Shown here: piece after piece, positions 29,034 to 37,395 of the stretch | Layout: each line of letters begins with the position of its first letter | Numbering within the stretch: the first letter of the stretch is position 1 | Assembly (NCBI RefSeq): GCF_016888135.1 | Contig: NZ_JACSWB010000174.1 | Span: 186,001 to 250,000 of the forward strand | Length of the DNA: 64,000 bases | Direction of reading: 5' to 3' | Source of the DNA: Leptolyngbya sp. CCY15150 | Lineage (GTDB): Bacteria > Cyanobacteriota > Cyanobacteriia > RECH01 | Position numbers and translations under genes: made by a program | Notes under the pieces: generated by a model | What the model saw: the letters and a program-made list of their open reading frames with translations, nothing else | Told to the model about the DNA's origin: nothing | The model's database searches: none

Positions 29034-29121
29034 GAAAAGAGATGCGATCGCACCACGCGATATACTCTACGTCTAGACAACCTCTCCGAGCCAGGACTCA
29101 GGGACTATCCCACGTTTCGTG

Positions 29122-29179
29122 AACCCTCACCCTAAATCCCTCTCCCAAGTCGGGCGAGGGACTTTGAATCCGGCTCCTC
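29122..29179. repeat. CCCTCACCC-type dispersed repeat, inverse orientation
   Basis: This is the reverse complement of the units ending GGATTTAGGGTGAGGG at 36189-36240 and 37858-37910, including the GGATTCAAAGTCCCTCGCCC core. It lies between the HEAT-fusion gene and the response regulator and was probably inserted upstream of the regulator's promoter. Confidence 0.85.
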
Positions 29180-29304
29180 TTATACCTTTTTGGGTGGGTC
29201 ATGGCTTTGTCAAGGTGAGATGCTCCCTAGACTCAGTTCGACAATCCCCCGGCACTGATGCATTACAGTTGAGATATCGATGGACTGCCACCCGTGAGCT
29301 ACGG

Positions 29305-29985
29305 ATGAAAAAAATTCTGATTGTGGATGACGACATCACCCTCCGCACTGCGTTGATTCGGTATCTGGAAAAACGCGGTTACTCGGTGCAACAGGCTAGT
29401 TCTGGCTTAGAGGGCCTAGCCAAATTTGAAGACGATCCCCCCGATCTCATTGTGTCGGACATTATGATGCCCGAAATGGATGGCTTAGAGTTTTGCCGGC
29501 GGCTTCGCAGCACCCGCACCGGCCAGCTCGTGCCGTTCATCTTTCTATCTAGCCGCCAAGAGGTGGATGATCGGATTGAAGGGCATCGAACAGGGGCCGA
29601 CGACTATTTGGTCAAGCCCTTTGAAACCAAAGAATTGGAAGCCAAAATTGAAGCGCAACTAGAGCGATCGCGGCGGATGAATGCCGAAATTGTGCGGTTG
29701 ATGCAGCAGTCCAACACGGAGCAACCACCGGCCCCTGCAGCACCGCCCCCCGAACCTCTACCCCTGACGCCTGCCGAAGAGCGCGTCTTTTGGGAAGTGA
29801 TTCGCGGTTTGACCAATAAGCAAATTGGCGATCAGCTCTTTGTCAGTCCACGCACGGTGCAAACCCACCTCAGCAATATTTTGAGCAAGCTCCAGCTTGA
29901 AAATCGGGCCCAGTTGATTCGCTTTGCCTATGAGCATGGCTACCATCCTCCCGCAGAACCCCAGGATGGAGACGATAGCCATTGA
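29305..29985 (+). CDS. NarL/LuxR-family response regulator
   Basis: The 226-residue regulator has a receiver domain with acidic pocket VDDD (7-10), phospho-acceptor Asp52 in SDIMMPEMDG and Lys102 in DDYLVKPFE. A Pro-rich linker (PPAPAAPPPEPLPLTP) leads to a LuxR-type helix-turn-helix: FWEVIRGLTNKQIGDQLFVS and RTVQTHLSNILSKL. It resembles the Ycf29/NarL type found in cyanobacteria and plastids. No histidine kinase is nearby. The ATG at 29305 is chosen because the longer frame would translate the upstream repeat. The stop codon is 23 bp before the next start. Confidence 0.92.
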   Translation: MKKILIVDDDITLRTALIRYLEKRGYSVQQASSGLEGLAKFEDDPPDLIVSDIMMPEMDGLEFCRRLRSTRTGQLVPFIFLSSRQEVDDRIEGHRTGADDYLVKPFETKELEAKIEAQLERSRRMNAEIVRLMQQSNTEQPPAPAAPPPEPLPLTPAEERVFWEVIRGLTNKQIGDQLFVSPRTVQTHLSNILSKLQLENRAQLIRFAYEHGYHPPAEPQDGDDSH

Positions 29986-30008
29986 TGTTGTCCAGCAGGA
30001 GCCATGGA

Positions 30009-30509
30009 ATGATCGGAGTGTATAGTCTCGCCGAATTGCAAGCAGCGATCGCCCGTGAACCTGATCGCTGGCGACCCCTGGTTTTTACCAACGGCTGCTT
30101 TGACCTGATCCATGCTGGGCATGTGCGCTATTTGCAAACGGCCAAAGCCCTAGGGCGATCGCTGGTTGTCGGTCTCAATAGCGATCGCTCCATCCAAGGG
30201 ATTAAACCCCAGCCGGCCGGATTGCCCCAGCGACCGATTGTGCCAGAAGCGGAACGGGCGGAAGTGTTGGCGGCGCTGAGATCTGTCGATGGCGTGGTGC
30301 TGTTTTCAGACCCCACTGCCACGCACCTGATCACCACCCTCCAGCCCGACATCTACGCCAAAGGGGGCGACTACAATATTGCAACCCTACCCGAAGCTCC
30401 TGCCGTCCAACACTACGGCGGCCGCATTGAGCTAGTCCAAGTCGAAGTGCCCAGCTCCACCAGCGGCATCATTCAGCGGATCCTCGCGGCGGCATCGCCC
30501 CAAGCCTAA
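30009..30509 (+). CDS. D-glycero-beta-D-manno-heptose 1-phosphate adenylyltransferase
   Basis: This cytidylyltransferase-fold enzyme (166 residues; RfaE domain II/HldE C-terminal type) activates heptose-1-phosphate with ATP for ADP-heptose synthesis. The nucleotide-binding signature FTNGCFDLIHAGHVRYL is at residues 28-44, and KGGDYN and EVPSSTSGIIQRI follow. It stands alone, without the kinase domain. In-frame starts occur at 29982 (TTG) and 29985 (ATG, overlapping the regulator's stop). AGGAG with seven bases of spacing favours the ATG at 30009. Tight linkage to the response regulator suggests cotranscription. Confidence 0.88.
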   Translation: MIGVYSLAELQAAIAREPDRWRPLVFTNGCFDLIHAGHVRYLQTAKALGRSLVVGLNSDRSIQGIKPQPAGLPQRPIVPEAERAEVLAALRSVDGVVLFSDPTATHLITTLQPDIYAKGGDYNIATLPEAPAVQHYGGRIELVQVEVPSSTSGIIQRILAAASPQA

Positions 30510-30558
30510 TCCCATCAAAATCAGGTAGGATGCCTATGGTCAATCATGGCGATGGATA

Positions 30559-31020
30559 ATGGGCGGATTTTCTGCAGAAGAGCGCATTGAGTCGCTGAAG
30601 GTGGGTACGGTTGGGGCGATCGCCACGGGTTTGGCTTGGTTGCTCACCACGGGGCTAAATCAGTTTATTCCGCTACCGCTGCAGCCGATTTTGTTCCAGG
30701 GCGATCGCCTTCTGAGTTGGGTGGGGGTCAGTCAAGGAGCGATCGCTTTGGTATGCGGTGGATTATTTGGCATCACCTATCGCTACGTCATCCGCACGGA
30801 GACGAATGGACAACTGAAAACCGGAGCTGTCTTTGCCTTTGGCGGCGTGCGCGGTCTGGCGCTGGTGGAAGTAGGGCTACGGGATAGGTTTCCTCTGTGG
30901 AGTTTAGCGATTCCTTTACTGGAGGCGGTGGTGTGGTTTGCGATCGCTGCCCTGTGGATTGATGTGGGGCTAGGGCGAGGCTGGCTAAAACCTTGGACGG
31001 GGGGAACAAGCGATGGGTAG
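30559..31020 (+). CDS. Small conserved membrane protein
   Basis: I do not recognise a characterised family. The 153-residue protein has about four hydrophobic segments: VGAIATGLAWLLTTGL, AIALVCGGLFGITYRYVI, FAFGGVRGLALVEVGL and LLEAVVWFAIAALWIDV. Arrangement and length resemble a conserved cyanobacterial membrane protein of unknown role. It follows the heptose adenylyltransferase gene by 49 bp on the same strand and may be in the same operon. Confidence 0.7.
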   Translation: MGGFSAEERIESLKVGTVGAIATGLAWLLTTGLNQFIPLPLQPILFQGDRLLSWVGVSQGAIALVCGGLFGITYRYVIRTETNGQLKTGAVFAFGGVRGLALVEVGLRDRFPLWSLAIPLLEAVVWFAIAALWIDVGLGRGWLKPWTGGTSDG

Positions 31021-31117
31021 GTTGAGCTGGAGGGCGATGGATCGATGGCTGGGTACTCGGCTAGGGTGGGATGGCCTAGACTAGGGAAATCTTGTGTTTC
31101 TTCCTGAATATAGCGCT

Positions 31118-33841
31118 ATGACCAACCCCGAGCCGCCTACCAACCATACTCCCTTAACTTGGAACGACGTTCGGAACCTCTTAAACTCCAAGCTAGTAAG
31201 TACGGGAGTCCCTGGGATGATTGTGGGTGTGGCTATTACCCGAGCAATTGATGGTGCATGGGGACAAGCCATTCAAGCCCTTGGCGTTGCAGCAGGAGCT
31301 TGGGTTTTAATCAAAGTTGGTGTCCGCCTAGCGCCCAAAGTTGAGCGAGTTGTTGATCATGTAGATCGAACGTTTGATAATCGCGTTGAACTTACCCTCA
31401 GTACAGTCACTGGATTTCATCGACAATACCTAGAAGCCTTAAAGACACATTGCCACAGTATTAATATAGAAGGCTATAAAGGTAGGTTACCTCGCCTAGT
31501 TCTTGAAAAAGTTTATGTGCCGCTACGAGTGAGTGTAGATGATCCTGATAGATCACCACTGCAGAACCGCAGCCTCAAGATTTGGGATAAGTTGCCTAAA
31601 GTCGAGCAACCTGATGGCTATTTCTCAGAGCGTTTGATTGCTATTATTGCTAGTCCTGGGTATGGAAAAACTACACTTTTGCGATTCCTGACTCTAAGTT
31701 TTTCAAATACAACCTATATTGAACATGGAGCAAAGGACTTAATTCCTGTTTTACTTCTATTTCGTAGCTTTCATTCAGCAATTCAGTCGAAGAAAGAACC
31801 TTCACTTCCAACACTGATTGTGAGCCAAGTCAAAGAGTTACCTCGCTGTGATGAGCTGCGCACTTCTGAGCCATGGTTTAAAGGGCAGCTTAGCCGAGGA
31901 AAGTGCTTAGTAATGTTCGATGGCTTGGATGAAGTTCCAGAAGAACGGCGAGATTTAGTAAGCCAGTGGGCAAACTGGCAAATGCAGAACTATCAAACTC
32001 AATTTATCATTACATCACGCCCCCATGGATATGACAACAGCCTATTTTCAGGAGTGCAGCGCTTTGATGTTCTCGACCTTAATAGTGATCAACAAAGACT
32101 ATTTATTGAGCAATGGTATTCTTGCATCACGTGGGAACGAGAATGGAAATCTCATTATGAGGAAAGTCAGCAAGACCCCAATTCAAGTAAGCGCTTATCC
32201 CAAGAGCAAGCAGCCGCTGAAAGCGAGCATCTAGCCCAGCTAGCAGCAGATGACCTAAAGCGTCAGCTATTTTCGGATCGCAGCTTGACGGATCTTGCCA
32301 AAAATCCGCTGCTGATTACCATTATTGCCGCAACCCATGAAGCTGGGGAGCAATTGCCTAAGCAACGTATTCATCTTTATCGAGAAATTTTTAAGGTGCT
32401 GTTGGAGTATCGCCCAAATCGGCGAGATACCCGACTGACCATTACAAATGCTGACGACAACCAAAAAGTATTGCAGGGGTTAGCTTTGAGCCTAACCGAG
32501 GCTAAAAAGACCCGATTTTCGGCGGAGGAGGGAGCAGATTGGATCCGAGATCGCCTAACGACGGTTCATCCCGCAGCAACTCTGACACCCAAAGGCTTCC
32601 TAGACGAGATTCAAAAAATTTCAGGCTTGTTAGCTGGAGGAGAGGGAAACTTATACGAATTTACCCACAAAACCTTTCAAGAATATCTGGCTGCTCTAGA
32701 GCTGAGCAGTATAACAGACGGGTTTTCAAGAGTGATTTCCCAATTAGAGAGTGAAGATTGGAAAGAGGTTATCTATTTCTTTGCCATGCAAAAGGATCCA
32801 AATCCTTTTATAGAAGCTGCCTTAAAGAGTCCCAACGTGAGCCATCTAGCTCTCGCCTGGCGATTGGTTAAGGATAATCCACGGGTTAGAGAAGATCTGA
32901 AAGATAAGACGCTAGATGCGCTACGAGAACACAACTTTATCTTCTCATCAATGCAGCTATACCAACGTTTTCGCAACCTAGTACAAATTAATGATAAAGC
33001 GGGCGTCTCAGAATTTATAACCTGGGGAGAATACAAATTACTCCAACAAGATCAACTTGATGGACAGTTTCATTCCCAATCTGCTATCTATTCAACATAT
33101 CATCTACCCAGTGGCAATCCAATTGAAGACATAAGCTGGGAAGATGCCCGGTGGTTTTGTGCTTGGTTATCTACCCAGGCATCCCTGGCGTCAGAGGATG
33201 AGGTCTATGACTATCGCCTGCCCACACCGGAAGAATGGCAACAGGTGCAGCAGCATATCGCATCATCAGAACACTCCAGATCTCTCACCTCTTGGACAAC
33301 AGACCCAGCTCTTGGCGGCAATGCGCTGTGCGTTGTGCGAGAACGTATCCCTGATTGCTATAGAAACCTGGTGAACTATTTAGCCAACGGAGCCTGGAAA
33401 GAAGCAGACCAAGAAACCGAGCGACAAATGTTGAAGGCTGTGGGGAGCGACGCTGAGAAGCGTGGCTGCTTAGATCTAGAGGAGATCCGCGAGTTTCCCT
33501 GCGATGACCTGCGCATCATTGATCGCCTATGGGTGAAGTTTAGCGGTGGTCGGTTTGGATTTAGCGTGCAGAAGCAAATCTGGGTTGAGGTAGGTGGTAA
33601 GCTAGACTATAGTAAAGACTTGGAAGCTGCTGTAAAAGCTTATGGAAAGATGAGCGATCGCAATGGATGGCAACAGTCCGGGTCGTTCATTAGCCCGTCC
33701 GATGTAATTTTTGATATCACTGCTCCTTTGGGTCACCTCCCGTCTTTTGGTATGCTCGGGTTGGTGTTCGAGGGAGCTATTCGGTTGGGGGTTGTTGGGG
33801 GTGGTATATTCTTATCTCGTATCCAGACCTGTAAACTTTAG
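31118..33841 (+). CDS. NACHT NTPase with partial FGE-like and C-terminal GUN4 domain
   Basis: The 907-residue STAND-type protein has a hydrophobic N-terminal stretch (about residues 28-68). A NACHT ATPase follows, with Walker A ASPGYGKTTLL (178-188) and Walker B LVMFDGLDEV (264-273). A helical region ends in FTHKTFQEYLAALEL. Around 640-710 there is an FGE/SUMF1-like piece (ISWEDARWFCAWLS, YRLPTPEEWQ) that stops before the catalytic part. Residues 750-907 are a GUN4 tetrapyrrole-binding domain (GAWKEADQET, LRIIDRLWVKFSGGRFGFS, GHLPSF, SRIQTCKL). The likely role is signal sensing, possibly defence, gated by a tetrapyrrole; that is inference. The ATG at 31118 is preferred over GTG at 31094. The first two kilobases are A+T-rich. 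Confidence 0.85.
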   Translation: MTNPEPPTNHTPLTWNDVRNLLNSKLVSTGVPGMIVGVAITRAIDGAWGQAIQALGVAAGAWVLIKVGVRLAPKVERVVDHVDRTFDNRVELTLSTVTGFHRQYLEALKTHCHSINIEGYKGRLPRLVLEKVYVPLRVSVDDPDRSPLQNRSLKIWDKLPKVEQPDGYFSERLIAIIASPGYGKTTLLRFLTLSFSNTTYIEHGAKDLIPVLLLFRSFHSAIQSKKEPSLPTLIVSQVKELPRCDELRTSEPWFKGQLSRGKCLVMFDGLDEVPEERRDLVSQWANWQMQNYQTQFIITSRPHGYDNSLFSGVQRFDVLDLNSDQQRLFIEQWYSCITWEREWKSHYEESQQDPNSSKRLSQEQAAAESEHLAQLAADDLKRQLFSDRSLTDLAKNPLLITIIAATHEAGEQLPKQRIHLYREIFKVLLEYRPNRRDTRLTITNADDNQKVLQGLALSLTEAKKTRFSAEEGADWIRDRLTTVHPAATLTPKGFLDEIQKISGLLAGGEGNLYEFTHKTFQEYLAALELSSITDGFSRVISQLESEDWKEVIYFFAMQKDPNPFIEAALKSPNVSHLALAWRLVKDNPRVREDLKDKTLDALREHNFIFSSMQLYQRFRNLVQINDKAGVSEFITWGEYKLLQQDQLDGQFHSQSAIYSTYHLPSGNPIEDISWEDARWFCAWLSTQASLASEDEVYDYRLPTPEEWQQVQQHIASSEHSRSLTSWTTDPALGGNALCVVRERIPDCYRNLVNYLANGAWKEADQETERQMLKAVGSDAEKRGCLDLEEIREFPCDDLRIIDRLWVKFSGGRFGFSVQKQIWVEVGGKLDYSKDLEAAVKAYGKMSDRNGWQQSGSFISPSDVIFDITAPLGHLPSFGMLGLVFEGAIRLGVVGGGIFLSRIQTCKL

Positions 33842-33999
33842 CATGTAAGCGCTCCAGCTCATTCCAAAAAGATTATTGGGAACCGTCTCTCCACGGAAAA
33901 CTAGGTGGTTCGGCGATTCGCTACCGGTTACCAGGATCACATCGTATCCGTGAATTGCAGCATGGCAATGGTTAGGTTGAGATAATTTGCTACATCGCT

Positions 34000-34659
34000 C
34001 TATCGTTTCAGGGCGAGGGTGAGGCCGTCGGCGATGGGGATAAGGCTAAGGTGGATGCGATCGTCTTGGTGCAGAGCTGTGTTGAAGTCGCGGATCGCTT
34101 GGGTGCGGTTGTCGGTCACGCTAGGATCAGCGACTCGTCCTGACCACAGCACATTGTCGATCACGATGAGGCCCCCAGATCGAACGAGCTGGAGCGATCG
34201 CTCGTAGTAGTTGCGATAGTTCGACTTATCGGCATCAATGAAAGCTAGGTCAAAGGGTGCGACTTGGTCTGCTAATAAGCGATCGAGGGTGTCTAGGGCT
34301 GGAGCAATGCGCAGATCTACCTTGTGGGCCACACCTGCCTGTTCCCAGTAGCGACGAGCGATCGCTGTATAGTCATCACTGACATCACAGGCGACAATCT
34401 GACCATCGGCCGGCAGCGCTAACGCCATCACCAGAGAGCTATAGCCCGTAAAAACACCAATTTCCAGAATCCGCCGCGCCCCCATGAGCTGCACCAACAG
34501 CGCCATCAACTGCCCCTGCTCTGGAGCAATCTGCATCTGCCCCATGGGATGCTGGGCCGTCTCCGCCCGCAGGGCTTGCAGCACCTCGGGTTCTCGGAGA
34601 GAAACGGAAAGCAGGTAGTTGCGTAGGGTCTCGTTGAGGTTGAGGGTTTCGTTAGACAT
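34000..34659 (-). CDS. SAM-dependent O-methyltransferase (caffeoyl-CoA type)
   Basis: The 219-residue cation-dependent O-methyltransferase shows the SAM-binding motif ILEIGVFTGYSSLVMALAL near residues 61-79 and the acidic loop ACDVSDDYTAIARRYWEQAG. The metal-binding motif FIDADKSNYRNYYE is also present. The family methylates catechol-type hydroxyls, and the natural substrate in cyanobacteria is unknown. It is soluble and of normal length. It converges on the NACHT gene, with 158 bp between the stop codons and no clear terminator there. Confidence 0.9.
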   Translation of the reverse strand: MSNETLNLNETLRNYLLSVSLREPEVLQALRAETAQHPMGQMQIAPEQGQLMALLVQLMGARRILEIGVFTGYSSLVMALALPADGQIVACDVSDDYTAIARRYWEQAGVAHKVDLRIAPALDTLDRLLADQVAPFDLAFIDADKSNYRNYYERSLQLVRSGGLIVIDNVLWSGRVADPSVTDNRTQAIRDFNTALHQDDRIHLSLIPIADGLTLALKR

Positions 34660-34699
34660 AGGTGCAGGGGAATGCTACAGGTTCCATCATGCCACGGGC

Positions 34700-35785
34700 T
34701 CAGACTTTGAACAGTAAAAGCCACAGGGGAATCGTCAACAGCAGCAGGCCGCTGGTTAAGACAATGCTGCTGGCGATTAATTCCCGATCCAGTTCATACT
34801 CCTCCGCAAGGATGAGCCCCGCGAAGGCACTGGGCATACCTGCCATCAACACCACGGCTAAACAGGCTTCCGAGGGTAGACCAATCAGGGTAGTGATCAG
34901 ACCCACCAAAGCCGGAATCACCAACACTTTCAAGAGCGTGGGAGCGATCGCCCATTTGAGGCTACTCCAGCCCTTGAGCTGGCTCAGGCGAATGCCCATC
35001 AGCGACAGCGCCACGGCAATCACCACCCACACCGATACCTCCAGAGCCCCATCCACGAGGGGCGCAAAGGCCAGGGAATGGGTGGCAGCACCCACGATAA
35101 ACGCCCAGAGAGACGGCACGGTGAGCACATCACGGACTTGCCCCCAACTCAGCCCCGGCTGGGCCGATCGCCCAAAATAGCTGGCGAGGAAAACACCGAT
35201 GCCGTAGGTACCCACCACATTTTGGGTAACGCTGTAGAACACAATCCAGCTAAGATAACTATCGCTCACCAAAATAGGGGCGATCGCTAAGCCCACAAAG
35301 CCTGTATTGGCAATCATCGACGACAGGACAAAACTACCGCGCCGGGCTGGATCGCTCCAGTAGTCTATGGGCGGAATCGGAGGTGGTGATAAAACCGGTT
35401 CCCTAGGCGCTGTATCGGCGGCATCTAGAGAGAGCAGATTGTCTGTAGTATCAGACGATTGATCGACTTGGCTAGGATCTGAGCTGGGATCTGGGAGGGG
35501 CGATCGCTTCTCCTGTTCTGCCCGCCAGGTAATCCAAGATAAGGTGATCCAAGTCAACCCTAGGCTGCCCACCAGGGTCAAGACTGTAATCAGCGGCACT
35601 AAGCCAATGCTATCAGAGAAATTGGTACTGTGGGCCAGGGCAAAGACTTCTAGGGGAATGCCCACCCAGTAAAGCCCTCGACCAATCAAGCGGGGCCAGG
35701 CTTCGGGTAAAAATCTCGCTAGGATTACCCCCAGTCCTGGCCAAAATATGAGAGGTAGATAAGCATGAAGGAGAGTGTCGGTCAT
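34700..35785 (-). CDS. AEC-family (auxin efflux carrier-like) transporter
   Basis: This 361-residue permease has about ten membrane helices. A long hydrophilic, Asp/Ser-rich loop (about residues 95-145, PDPSSDPSQVDQSSDTTD) separates the first helices from the rest. Family features include RGSFVLSSMIANTGFVGLAI and MAGMPSAFAGLILAEEYELD near the end. AEC proteins export organic anions or similar solutes in bacteria, and the substrate here is unknown. The methyltransferase gene follows 41 bp downstream, so the two could be cotranscribed. Confidence 0.9.
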   Translation of the reverse strand: MTDTLLHAYLPLIFWPGLGVILARFLPEAWPRLIGRGLYWVGIPLEVFALAHSTNFSDSIGLVPLITVLTLVGSLGLTWITLSWITWRAEQEKRSPLPDPSSDPSQVDQSSDTTDNLLSLDAADTAPREPVLSPPPIPPIDYWSDPARRGSFVLSSMIANTGFVGLAIAPILVSDSYLSWIVFYSVTQNVVGTYGIGVFLASYFGRSAQPGLSWGQVRDVLTVPSLWAFIVGAATHSLAFAPLVDGALEVSVWVVIAVALSLMGIRLSQLKGWSSLKWAIAPTLLKVLVIPALVGLITTLIGLPSEACLAVVLMAGMPSAFAGLILAEEYELDRELIASSIVLTSGLLLLTIPLWLLLFKV

Positions 35786-35827
35786 GGCTTAAGCTCCTTC
35801 AGTCTAGATAAGCGATCGATCACTCAA

Positions 35828-36085
35828 CTATTTCTCCAATCGCACCACGTACCATTGCAGGAAGCGATCGGGGCCAAGGTCAAATTCACAGTAGGTATCG
35901 CGCAGATGCAGAGCTTGGGCTTCCAAGGAGTCCAGCCGCTGGAGATCCCGAGGCAGGGGGTCGGAATAGGTAGACAACACCTGCGTCAATTTGGCCAGCA
36001 GTTCCTCTGCGGTCAAGAATTGCTCCGGTTGATTCGCTTCCAAGAGGACGTAGGCATCTTCTTGGTACATCATGGGGTCAGGCAT
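35828..36085 (-). CDS. crr7: CRR7-like protein (chlororespiratory reduction 7)
   Basis: The 85-residue soluble protein reads MPDPMMYQEDAYVLLEANQP and then FLTAEELLAKL, and ends DRFLQWYVVRLEK. This matches the CRR7 family, a factor needed for accumulation or assembly of the NDH-1 complex in chloroplasts and present in cyanobacteria. The frame is open for 30 more codons, but AAGGAGAG immediately before the ATG at 36085 decides the start. It precedes the AEC transporter gene on the same strand by 42 bp. Confidence 0.85.
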   Translation of the reverse strand: MPDPMMYQEDAYVLLEANQPEQFLTAEELLAKLTQVLSTYSDPLPRDLQRLDSLEAQALHLRDTYCEFDLGPDRFLQWYVVRLEK

Positions 36086-36152
36086 GGTTCTCTCCTTGCA
36101 ATGGGCATCCCTGTTTTGCACGTTGACCCACCCTTCGGGAAGCGCAAGCTCT

Positions 36153-36242
36153 ACATCCCCAGTCCCTTCTTCCAAAAAGGGCGAAGGGGAGCCGGATTCA
36201 AAATCCCTCGCCCGCTCTGGGAGAGGGATTTAGGGTGAGGGA
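36153..36242. repeat. Composite CCCTTC/GGGTGAGGG dispersed repeat
   Basis: CCCAGTCCCTTCTTCC and GGGCGAAGGGGAGCCGGATT form one small dyad. The second, CCCTCGCCC-GCTCT-GGGAGAGGG, is followed by ATTTAGGGTGAGGG. The unit recurs at 37818-37912 nearly complete, and its second half recurs at 36318-36362 and, inverted, at 29122. Confidence 0.85.
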
Positions 36243-36317
36243 CGTGGGATGCATCTCTCGCGATCGCCCCGACTCCCCTGTGATCAAAAGGAATCGGGGT
36301 TCAACCTATCGGCTAGA

Positions 36318-36362
36318 TTCAAAGTCCCTCGCCCGCTCTGGGAGAGGGATTTAGGGTGAGGG
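36318..36362. repeat. Half-unit of the dispersed repeat, next to pdhA
   Basis: TTCAAAGTCCCTCGCCCGCT and the rest of the second dyad are repeated from 36201-36240. The unit ends four bases before the pdhA stop codon region, so it could act on the end of that transcript as a hairpin. Confidence 0.85.
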
Positions 36363-36366
36363 CATC

Positions 36367-37395
36367 CTAGTCTTCCGCAAACACGTAGCGATAGAGTTCG
36401 CTGGGGTCGGGTTCAGGACTGTCTTGAGCAAATTGCACCGCCTCATCAATCTCCGCCTGAATGCGCTTTTCGATCGCTTTCAGTTCCGCCTCGGTCGCCA
36501 ACTCTTCATCCACCAGGTAGGTGCCCAGACGCTTGATCGGATCGCGGGAGAACCAGGCGTCTTTTTCCTGCTTACTGCGCAGTTCATCCGGATCCGCCAA
36601 GGAGTGACCGCGGAAGCGATAGGTGAGCGCTTCAATCAACGTGGGCCCTTCCCCAGCTCGCGCCCGTTCAACGGCTTCTTGGGCCACAGCTCGCACCGCT
36701 AGCACATCCATGCCGTCTACCTCAACGCCCACCATATTGAAGACGCTGGCTTTCTTGTAGATTTCTGGCTGAGAGGTGGCGCGATCGTGGGCCATGCCGA
36801 TCGCCCATTTGTTGTTTTCCACCACGTAAATGATCGGCAGCTTCCACAGCGCCGCCATGTTCAGGCATTCAAAAAACTGACCGTTGTTCGACGCACCATC
36901 GCCAAAGAAGCAGGTGGAGACTTGGTTGGCATTAGCGTCTCCCAGAGCTTCCCGGCGATACTTAGCCTGGAAGGCGGCCCCAGTGGCCACGGGAATGCCC
37001 TCAGCCACAAAGGCATAGCCGCCTAGCAAGTTATGTTCTGCGGAGAATAGGTGCATGGAACCGCCTCGTCCCTTGCTGCAGCCCGTTGCCTTACCAAACA
37101 GTTCTGCCATTACTTCCCGTGCAGGCACCCCAGCACTCAAAGCATGGACGTGGTCGCGGTAGGTGCTACAAACGAAGTCATCCGACCGCAGGGCCTTGAT
37201 CACACCTGAGGAAACGGCTTCTTGACCGTTATAGAGGTGAACAAACCCGAACATTTTGCCGCGATAGTACATCTCGGCACATTTGTCTTCAAAAAAGCGC
37301 CCGAGCACCATATCTTCGTAGACGATCAGCCCGTCGTCGCGGGTAATCGCCCCAGGCTTGGGCGTAAAGACGGGTACTGTTCTCTCTTGATCCAT
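36367..37395 (-). CDS. pdhA: Pyruvate dehydrogenase E1 component, alpha subunit
   Basis: This 342-residue thiamine-diphosphate enzyme subunit decarboxylates pyruvate and passes the acetyl group to lipoyl-E2. The ThDP-binding motif is [20 protein letters not shown] ending in VENNKWAI (near residues 163-194). The phosphorylation-loop region [15 protein letters not shown] is present. The length is normal for cyanobacteria. The frame is open for 60 further codons, but homology starts at [10 protein letters not shown] (37395). The beta subunit, E2 and E3 genes are not in the window, as is usual for scattered cyanobacterial pdh genes. Dispersed repeats flank it on both sides. Confidence 0.95.

Follow-up and report, generated by a model that had tools for sequence, protein, structure and literature searches.

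What does a GUN4 domain do at the end of a NACHT protein? The question is raised by an intact open reading frame of 907 amino acids in the window (the whole stretch of 64,000 nucleotides that was analysed; coordinates in Table 1). The original prediction read it as a NACHT NTPase joined through a truncated FGE-like segment to GUN4, the latter being a possible ligand sensor that links an immune-like or cell-death switch to heme or chlorophyll status. The layout was confirmed. Pfam placed NACHT (181-343, 3.6e-7), FGE-sulfatase (660-716, 1.2e-6) and GUN4 (756-888, 2.1e-35) in this order along the protein, every match lying above the curated cut-off (numbering of the 915-aa product from the upstream GTG). 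GUN4 entries were clear matches in a PDB sequence search with the C-terminus. AlphaFold modelled the full-length protein with a pLDDT of 82 and the FGE and GUN4 parts together with a pLDDT of 88, and Foldseek matched the full-length model to NLRC4, NLRP3 and NOD2. The Walker A (SPGYGKTT) and Walker B (LVMFDGLDEV) motifs were invariant across 12 relatives. The protein has the P-loop, the Walker B motif and the NLR-like fold of the NACHT/STAND class. Family and fold agree with an immune- or cell-death-like switch, and GUN4 sits where STAND proteins have their sensor. The N-terminal region may be an effector or membrane part; at least one hydrophobic segment there passed the threshold of the hydropathy scan in only 26 of 47 relatives.

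Table 1. Features of the NACHT-GUN4 locus, in window positions.
Feature	Position	Strand	Basis and remarks
NACHT - compact FGE - GUN4-fold protein	31118..33841	+	907 aa; ATG 31118 to stop 33841; alternative start GTG 31094
N-terminal helical region with hydrophobic stretches GVPGMIVGVAITRAI... and AIQALGVAAGAWVLIKVGV; putative effector/membrane part	31118..31500	+	Hydropathy scan; model pLDDT 40-67
NACHT NTPase and the helical domains after it	31610..32900	+	Pfam; Foldseek NLRC4/NLRP3/NOD2
Compact FGE/C-type-lectin-like domain, complete, ITWGEY to ALCVVRERI	32990..33352	+	Pfam FGE; 23-linker alignment; model
GUN4-fold core up to GHLP (33731-33742)	33359..33742	+	Pfam; Foldseek; residue table; tetrapyrrole-binding residues lost
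Hypervariable G/T-rich segment, 68 bp, in place of the canonical alpha6-alpha7 ligand loop	33743..33810	+	
29-bp DNA element CTTATCTCGTATCCAGACCTGTAAACTTT	33811..33839	+	Encodes the tail, overlaps the stop codon; short hairpin arms
Conserved non-coding DNA 3' of the stop	33840..33936	.	Second conserved block at ~33907-33936

The FGE-like segment was expected to break off after YRLPTPEEWQ. In fact it runs on to the closing strand ALCVVRERI, which resembles GIRVVRE of NACHT-FGE relatives and was modelled with high confidence by AlphaFold (segment modelled as E74-78 ... E116-122). An alignment of 23 NACHT-GUN4 proteins showed a conserved compact linker of ~160 aa with an ITxAEY strand, SWEDAxxFCAWL, YRLPTxxE and a closing (I/L)xVV(R/K)E strand, in this order; other bacteria have NACHT-FGE proteins in which a large insert separates these two halves. 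Being compact yet complete, the segment is neither truncated nor pseudogenic. A complete FGE/SUMF1 core with the catalytic cysteine region is absent, as only Pfam positions 75-119 of 255 matched. Since the portion in which a catalytic region would lie is missing, the segment could be at most a binding module. Six proteins with the same three domains (L177, L178, L179, L180, L182 and L021) carry an additional full FGE domain behind GUN4. In two NACHT proteins (L192 and L193), the compact FGE is interrupted by a large insert, which in L192 is rich in DRVLD-type repeats.

Tetrapyrrole sensing by GUN4 fusions was proposed by Kaur et al. (PMC7159879), and at this locus it would mean that GUN4 reports chlorophyll, heme or light stress to the NACHT switch. 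The fold itself is intact: Foldseek matched the C-terminal model to GUN4 crystal structures (TMt 0.74-0.78 to Arabidopsis GUN4), and fold residues such as W150, S154, G159, Q163, W183 and P208 were retained in ~96-99% of 110 non-canonical GUN4 domains. Canonical Gun4 binds porphyrins and bilins, and mutational and structural work has named Synechocystis F196 and R214 for porphyrins (PMC8967248) and the LxNxLR motif including N211 for bilins (PMC10156173). These residues are V, G and G/L (F196, N211 and R214, respectively) in the 907-aa protein, a loss of porphyrin-pocket residues that, by the terms of the original prediction, speaks against it. All three occurred in 30 of 30 canonical Gun4 proteins, against 4 (F196), 2 (N211) and 5 (R214) of the 110 non-canonical domains; LxNxLR was found in 28/30 and 0/110, respectively. 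The loop that carried them is now the hypervariable segment. Gun4 paralogues without Asn211 are known (PMC10156173), and Chlamydomonas GUN4 N219G loses bilin binding and keeps porphyrin binding (PMC10156173), which leaves room for some porphyrin binding here. From these residues, we expect that the GUN4 domain of the 907-aa protein has lost bilin binding, and it may bind porphyrin weakly. Since the pocket residues are missing, we rejected GUN4 as a tetrapyrrole sensor, a role that we hold to be quite improbable. A fully supported branch separated the canonical proteins from the rest in a GUN4 core tree; the fused proteins changed partner repeatedly, in an interior that was poorly resolved. PADLOC matched the protein to PDLC04062 (PD-T4-6) through the GUN4 domain alone, and canonical Gun4 also matches this model (1e-33). 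With only the GUN4 part of the model matched and no kinase domain, an assignment as PD-T4-6 defence kinase was rejected, and PD-T4-6 calls in cyanobacteria may be false positives.

The end of the gene suggested a different role. The tails of fused GUN4 proteins take three forms (SR..TC.L, SRLVNC... and LLSH.DL). Underlying all three is a single DNA sequence, CTTCTCTCGCATCGAGACTTGTAAACTGT, whose frames are used by 33, 22 and 22 genes. Because the frame is irrelevant, conservation acts on the DNA itself, and we rejected the tail as a protein motif. The element was present in 77 of 130 gene ends, compared with none among 29 canonical and 130 shuffled ends. The conserved DNA extends beyond the stop, with a second block ~100 bp further. 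In a pattern search of 242 genomes of the class, the element occurred in 87 genomes from 50 genera, with ~155 matches against 4 for the reversed control pattern. A GUN4 domain lay directly upstream in 28 of 30 loci from the unbiased pattern search, and one of the other two starts at a contig end. As judged from these sequences, the element is specific to GUN4 genes. A conserved RNA structure of the element was not supported, and it had no Rfam match. The element tolerates any incoming frame because each frame yields one of the short tails and a stop.

Between the GHLP codons and the 29-bp element lies a segment of quite another character, which we compared at 92 sites. With its element it is the most unusual feature of the gene, and the original prediction had overlooked it. 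Its length ranged from 16 to 107 bp (median 59) and was spread evenly over the residues modulo 3 (p = 0.31); G made up 0.39 and T 0.335 of the bases. Codon-position periodicity was far lower than in the adjoining core (chi-square 22 versus 89). In three pairs of loci (L058/L136, L092/L128 and the 907-aa gene with its counterpart in the congener G001), the downstream 81 bp were 94-98% identical, yet the segments were alike only at the level of shuffled sequence. Identity between paired loci ended 0-2 bases past GHLP. L092 and L128 are paralogues in one genome, and even their segments share no backbone. On the other hand, the segment was identical in a species pair (L275/L276) and differed in sequence and length in their congener L277, which points to sporadic change by whole replacement. 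The sample includes complete single-contig genomes, which argues against assembly error. In-frame stops were found in only 1 of about 91-92 segments, compared with 50.7 +/- 4.4 after shuffling (expectation 44-51), and the two unread frames held stops in 55 and 49 segments, as expected. The same was seen in 22 loci chosen by DNA pattern alone, ignoring open reading frames (0 versus 11.3 +/- 2.0 expected). By this measure, the segment is translated, and selection keeps its frame open. Four segments (L063, L064, L196 and L206) hold duplicated DNA from the GHLP codons, such as slippage or nested insertion might leave behind.

A classical diversity-generating retroelement (DGR) rewriting the 3' end, as for the CLec sensors on NACHT proteins that have been proposed as antigen sensors (PMC10907252), would account for the variable region at this end of NACHT, caspase and TIR genes and for the conserved site and hairpin behind it. 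It would not account for varying lengths or for the lack of a common backbone between paralogues of one genome. We found no TR/VR pair near six related genes and no template repeat with A-specific differences in the gene's own genome, in related genes or in the pair comparisons. No second copy of the 68-bp segment was found in the own genome, a 304-contig draft, nor a DGR-type reverse transcriptase; the sole reverse transcriptase found there is of the AbiA/DRT type (G000:C143, L298). With neither a TR/VR pair nor a template copy, we rejected a DGR, which is hardly credible here.

The element has a recurrent neighbour. At many element sites, the next gene is a convergent PF01797 Y1 transposase-like gene with the HuH motif. 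Among the 242 genomes, 27 of 38 copies of the subfamily concerned (at least 60% identity) adjoin an element, all 27 convergently, with the places compared by hand. The element was present in 31 of 35 genomes with this subfamily and in 56 of 207 genomes without it (p = 4e-12). Canonical gun4 loci had no Y1 gene, and NACHT-GUN4 loci shared no common partner gene apart from it. Such a neighbour, the hairpin and the few segments with duplicated flanking DNA would also fit the end of an IS200/REP-like mobile element behind GUN4 genes, the segment being a neutral scar or a loosely constrained tail. We regard this as rather unlikely: in-frame stops are nearly absent, the element stands beside GUN4 in nearly all loci of the unbiased search, and it is conserved across 50 genera and kept at many loci without the transposase. 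The Y1_Tnp protein is linked to the palindromic repeat at other loci, and a search at E <= 1e-60 found no member of the HuH subfamily in the own genome of the 907-aa gene. If the enzyme is indeed the agent, it has been lost or replaced at this locus, and the copy of the element and segment here may be frozen.

The survey of genomes for the same architecture yielded 62 distinct proteins in which a single frame encodes both NACHT and GUN4 (a 96-genome search and a scan of named genomes), from genera including Leptolyngbya, Leptothoe, Nostoc, Calothrix, Crocosphaera, Xenococcus and Prochloron. The partners in 94 GUN4 fusions included NACHT (28), kinase (19), caspase (15) and TIR (13) domains. The own genome (G000) holds ten GUN4 domains, one of which is canonical Gun4. 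Overall, the variable segment and element were found together in about a hundred related genes. In the window, the gene is surrounded by housekeeping functions (response regulator, nucleotidyltransferase, O-methyltransferase, CRR7 and PDH E1). PADLOC gave a few matches to defence genes as neighbours, from which we draw no conclusion.

At the same site as window 29512-37097, G001 (contig C158, L260) has another NACHT-GUN4 gene, one that lacks the FGE part. Here the flanking DNA is 92-93% identical and the NACHT only 31% at the amino acid level, with breakpoints at the start codon and within GUN4. At a second syntenic site (L169/L170, in Leptothoe and Leptolyngbya Heron Island J), the flanking proteins are 63-90% identical and the NACHT-FGE-GUN4 protein 39%. 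Such allele swaps are typical of a receptor locus that changes rapidly, though two cases give no rate. They would also favour recombination among divergent NACHT-GUN4 alleles as the sole source of diversity, to which we assign a small probability, since recombination leaves unexplained the random-like segments between DNA conserved on both sides, the G/T bias and the frame-free lengths. Dispersed repeats of ~45-150 bp, with dozens of copies in congeners, lie at ~29101-29195 and 36105-36255 of the window.

Taken together, the evidence argues that GUN4 probably serves NLR-like proteins as a scaffold that carries a diversified sensor loop. The receptor would consist of an N-terminal helical and hydrophobic part, the NACHT switch, the compact FGE and a GUN4-fold scaffold without a tetrapyrrole role. 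In place of the porphyrin loop of true Gun4 stands a hypervariable peptide, encoded by G/T-rich DNA of apparently untemplated origin that sits between the GHLP codons and the conserved element at the 3' end of the gene. Repeated events of nicking, extension and rejoining at the element could make the segment; the HuH enzyme is a possible agent, and the expected product of its chemistry is a free 3'-OH at the GUN4 side. The varied loop would be the ligand sensor, and ligand binding would lead to NACHT oligomerisation and firing of the N-terminal part. The 907-aa protein might thus sense a phage or nonself ligand and trigger death. More tentatively, cyanobacteria may possess a diversity generator independent of reverse transcription, in which a dedicated Y1/HuH nickase acts at a conserved 3' element and untemplated G/T-rich DNA enters the GUN4 ligand loop of NLR-, caspase-, TIR- and kinase-type receptors, much like the N-additions of vertebrate antigen receptors. 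In bacteria, diversification of receptors is known mainly from DGRs, and these depend on both a template and a reverse transcriptase. If NLR-like proteins are subject to a second route that apparently does without a template, the system would be of a new kind. The question of how receptor diversity arises could then be tested in culturable cyanobacteria, and the current view of GUN4 fusions as pigment sensors would have to be corrected.

How does this arrangement compare with known systems? Relatives in several bacteria are antiviral. The bacterial NACHT/STAND antiviral proteins (bNACHT, Avs) share the NACHT switch, a C-terminal sensor and the NLR-like fold with our protein, whereas the putative sensor here is a compact FGE with a variable GUN4. 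Canonical Gun4 and its paralogues (PMC10156173) share the fold and the core motifs; by contrast, our protein has lost the tetrapyrrole residues, is fused to NACHT and has its C-terminal helix replaced by the variable segment and DNA element. As in the RAYT and IS200-IS605 Y1 transposases with their REP elements (PMC3733652, PMC6006769), a PF01797 HuH protein stands beside a short hairpin. Here, however, the element is single or low copy and fixed at GUN4 gene ends, the Y1 gene is convergent and the variable segment lies on one side of the element. DGRs acting on CLec/NACHT sensors in Thiohalocapsa PB-PSB1 (PMC10907252) and in cyanobacteria (PMC7517822) likewise vary the 3' end of genes for NACHT, TIR or caspase proteins within a ligand-binding scaffold, and a conserved site closes the variable region. 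Their scaffold is a C-type lectin and ours GUN4; moreover, our segments have variable length and no backbone, template or DGR reverse transcriptase, and the neighbour is a Y1/HuH gene. In the open-access journal literature searched, we found no description of the variable segment or the element. V(D)J N-additions are random-like, G-biased, frame-free insertions in a receptor binding loop. Our segments share all of these properties, but the system is bacterial, with a single junction at the gene end, no RAG and no TdT identified. The arrangement looks like a previously undescribed bacterial route to receptor diversification.
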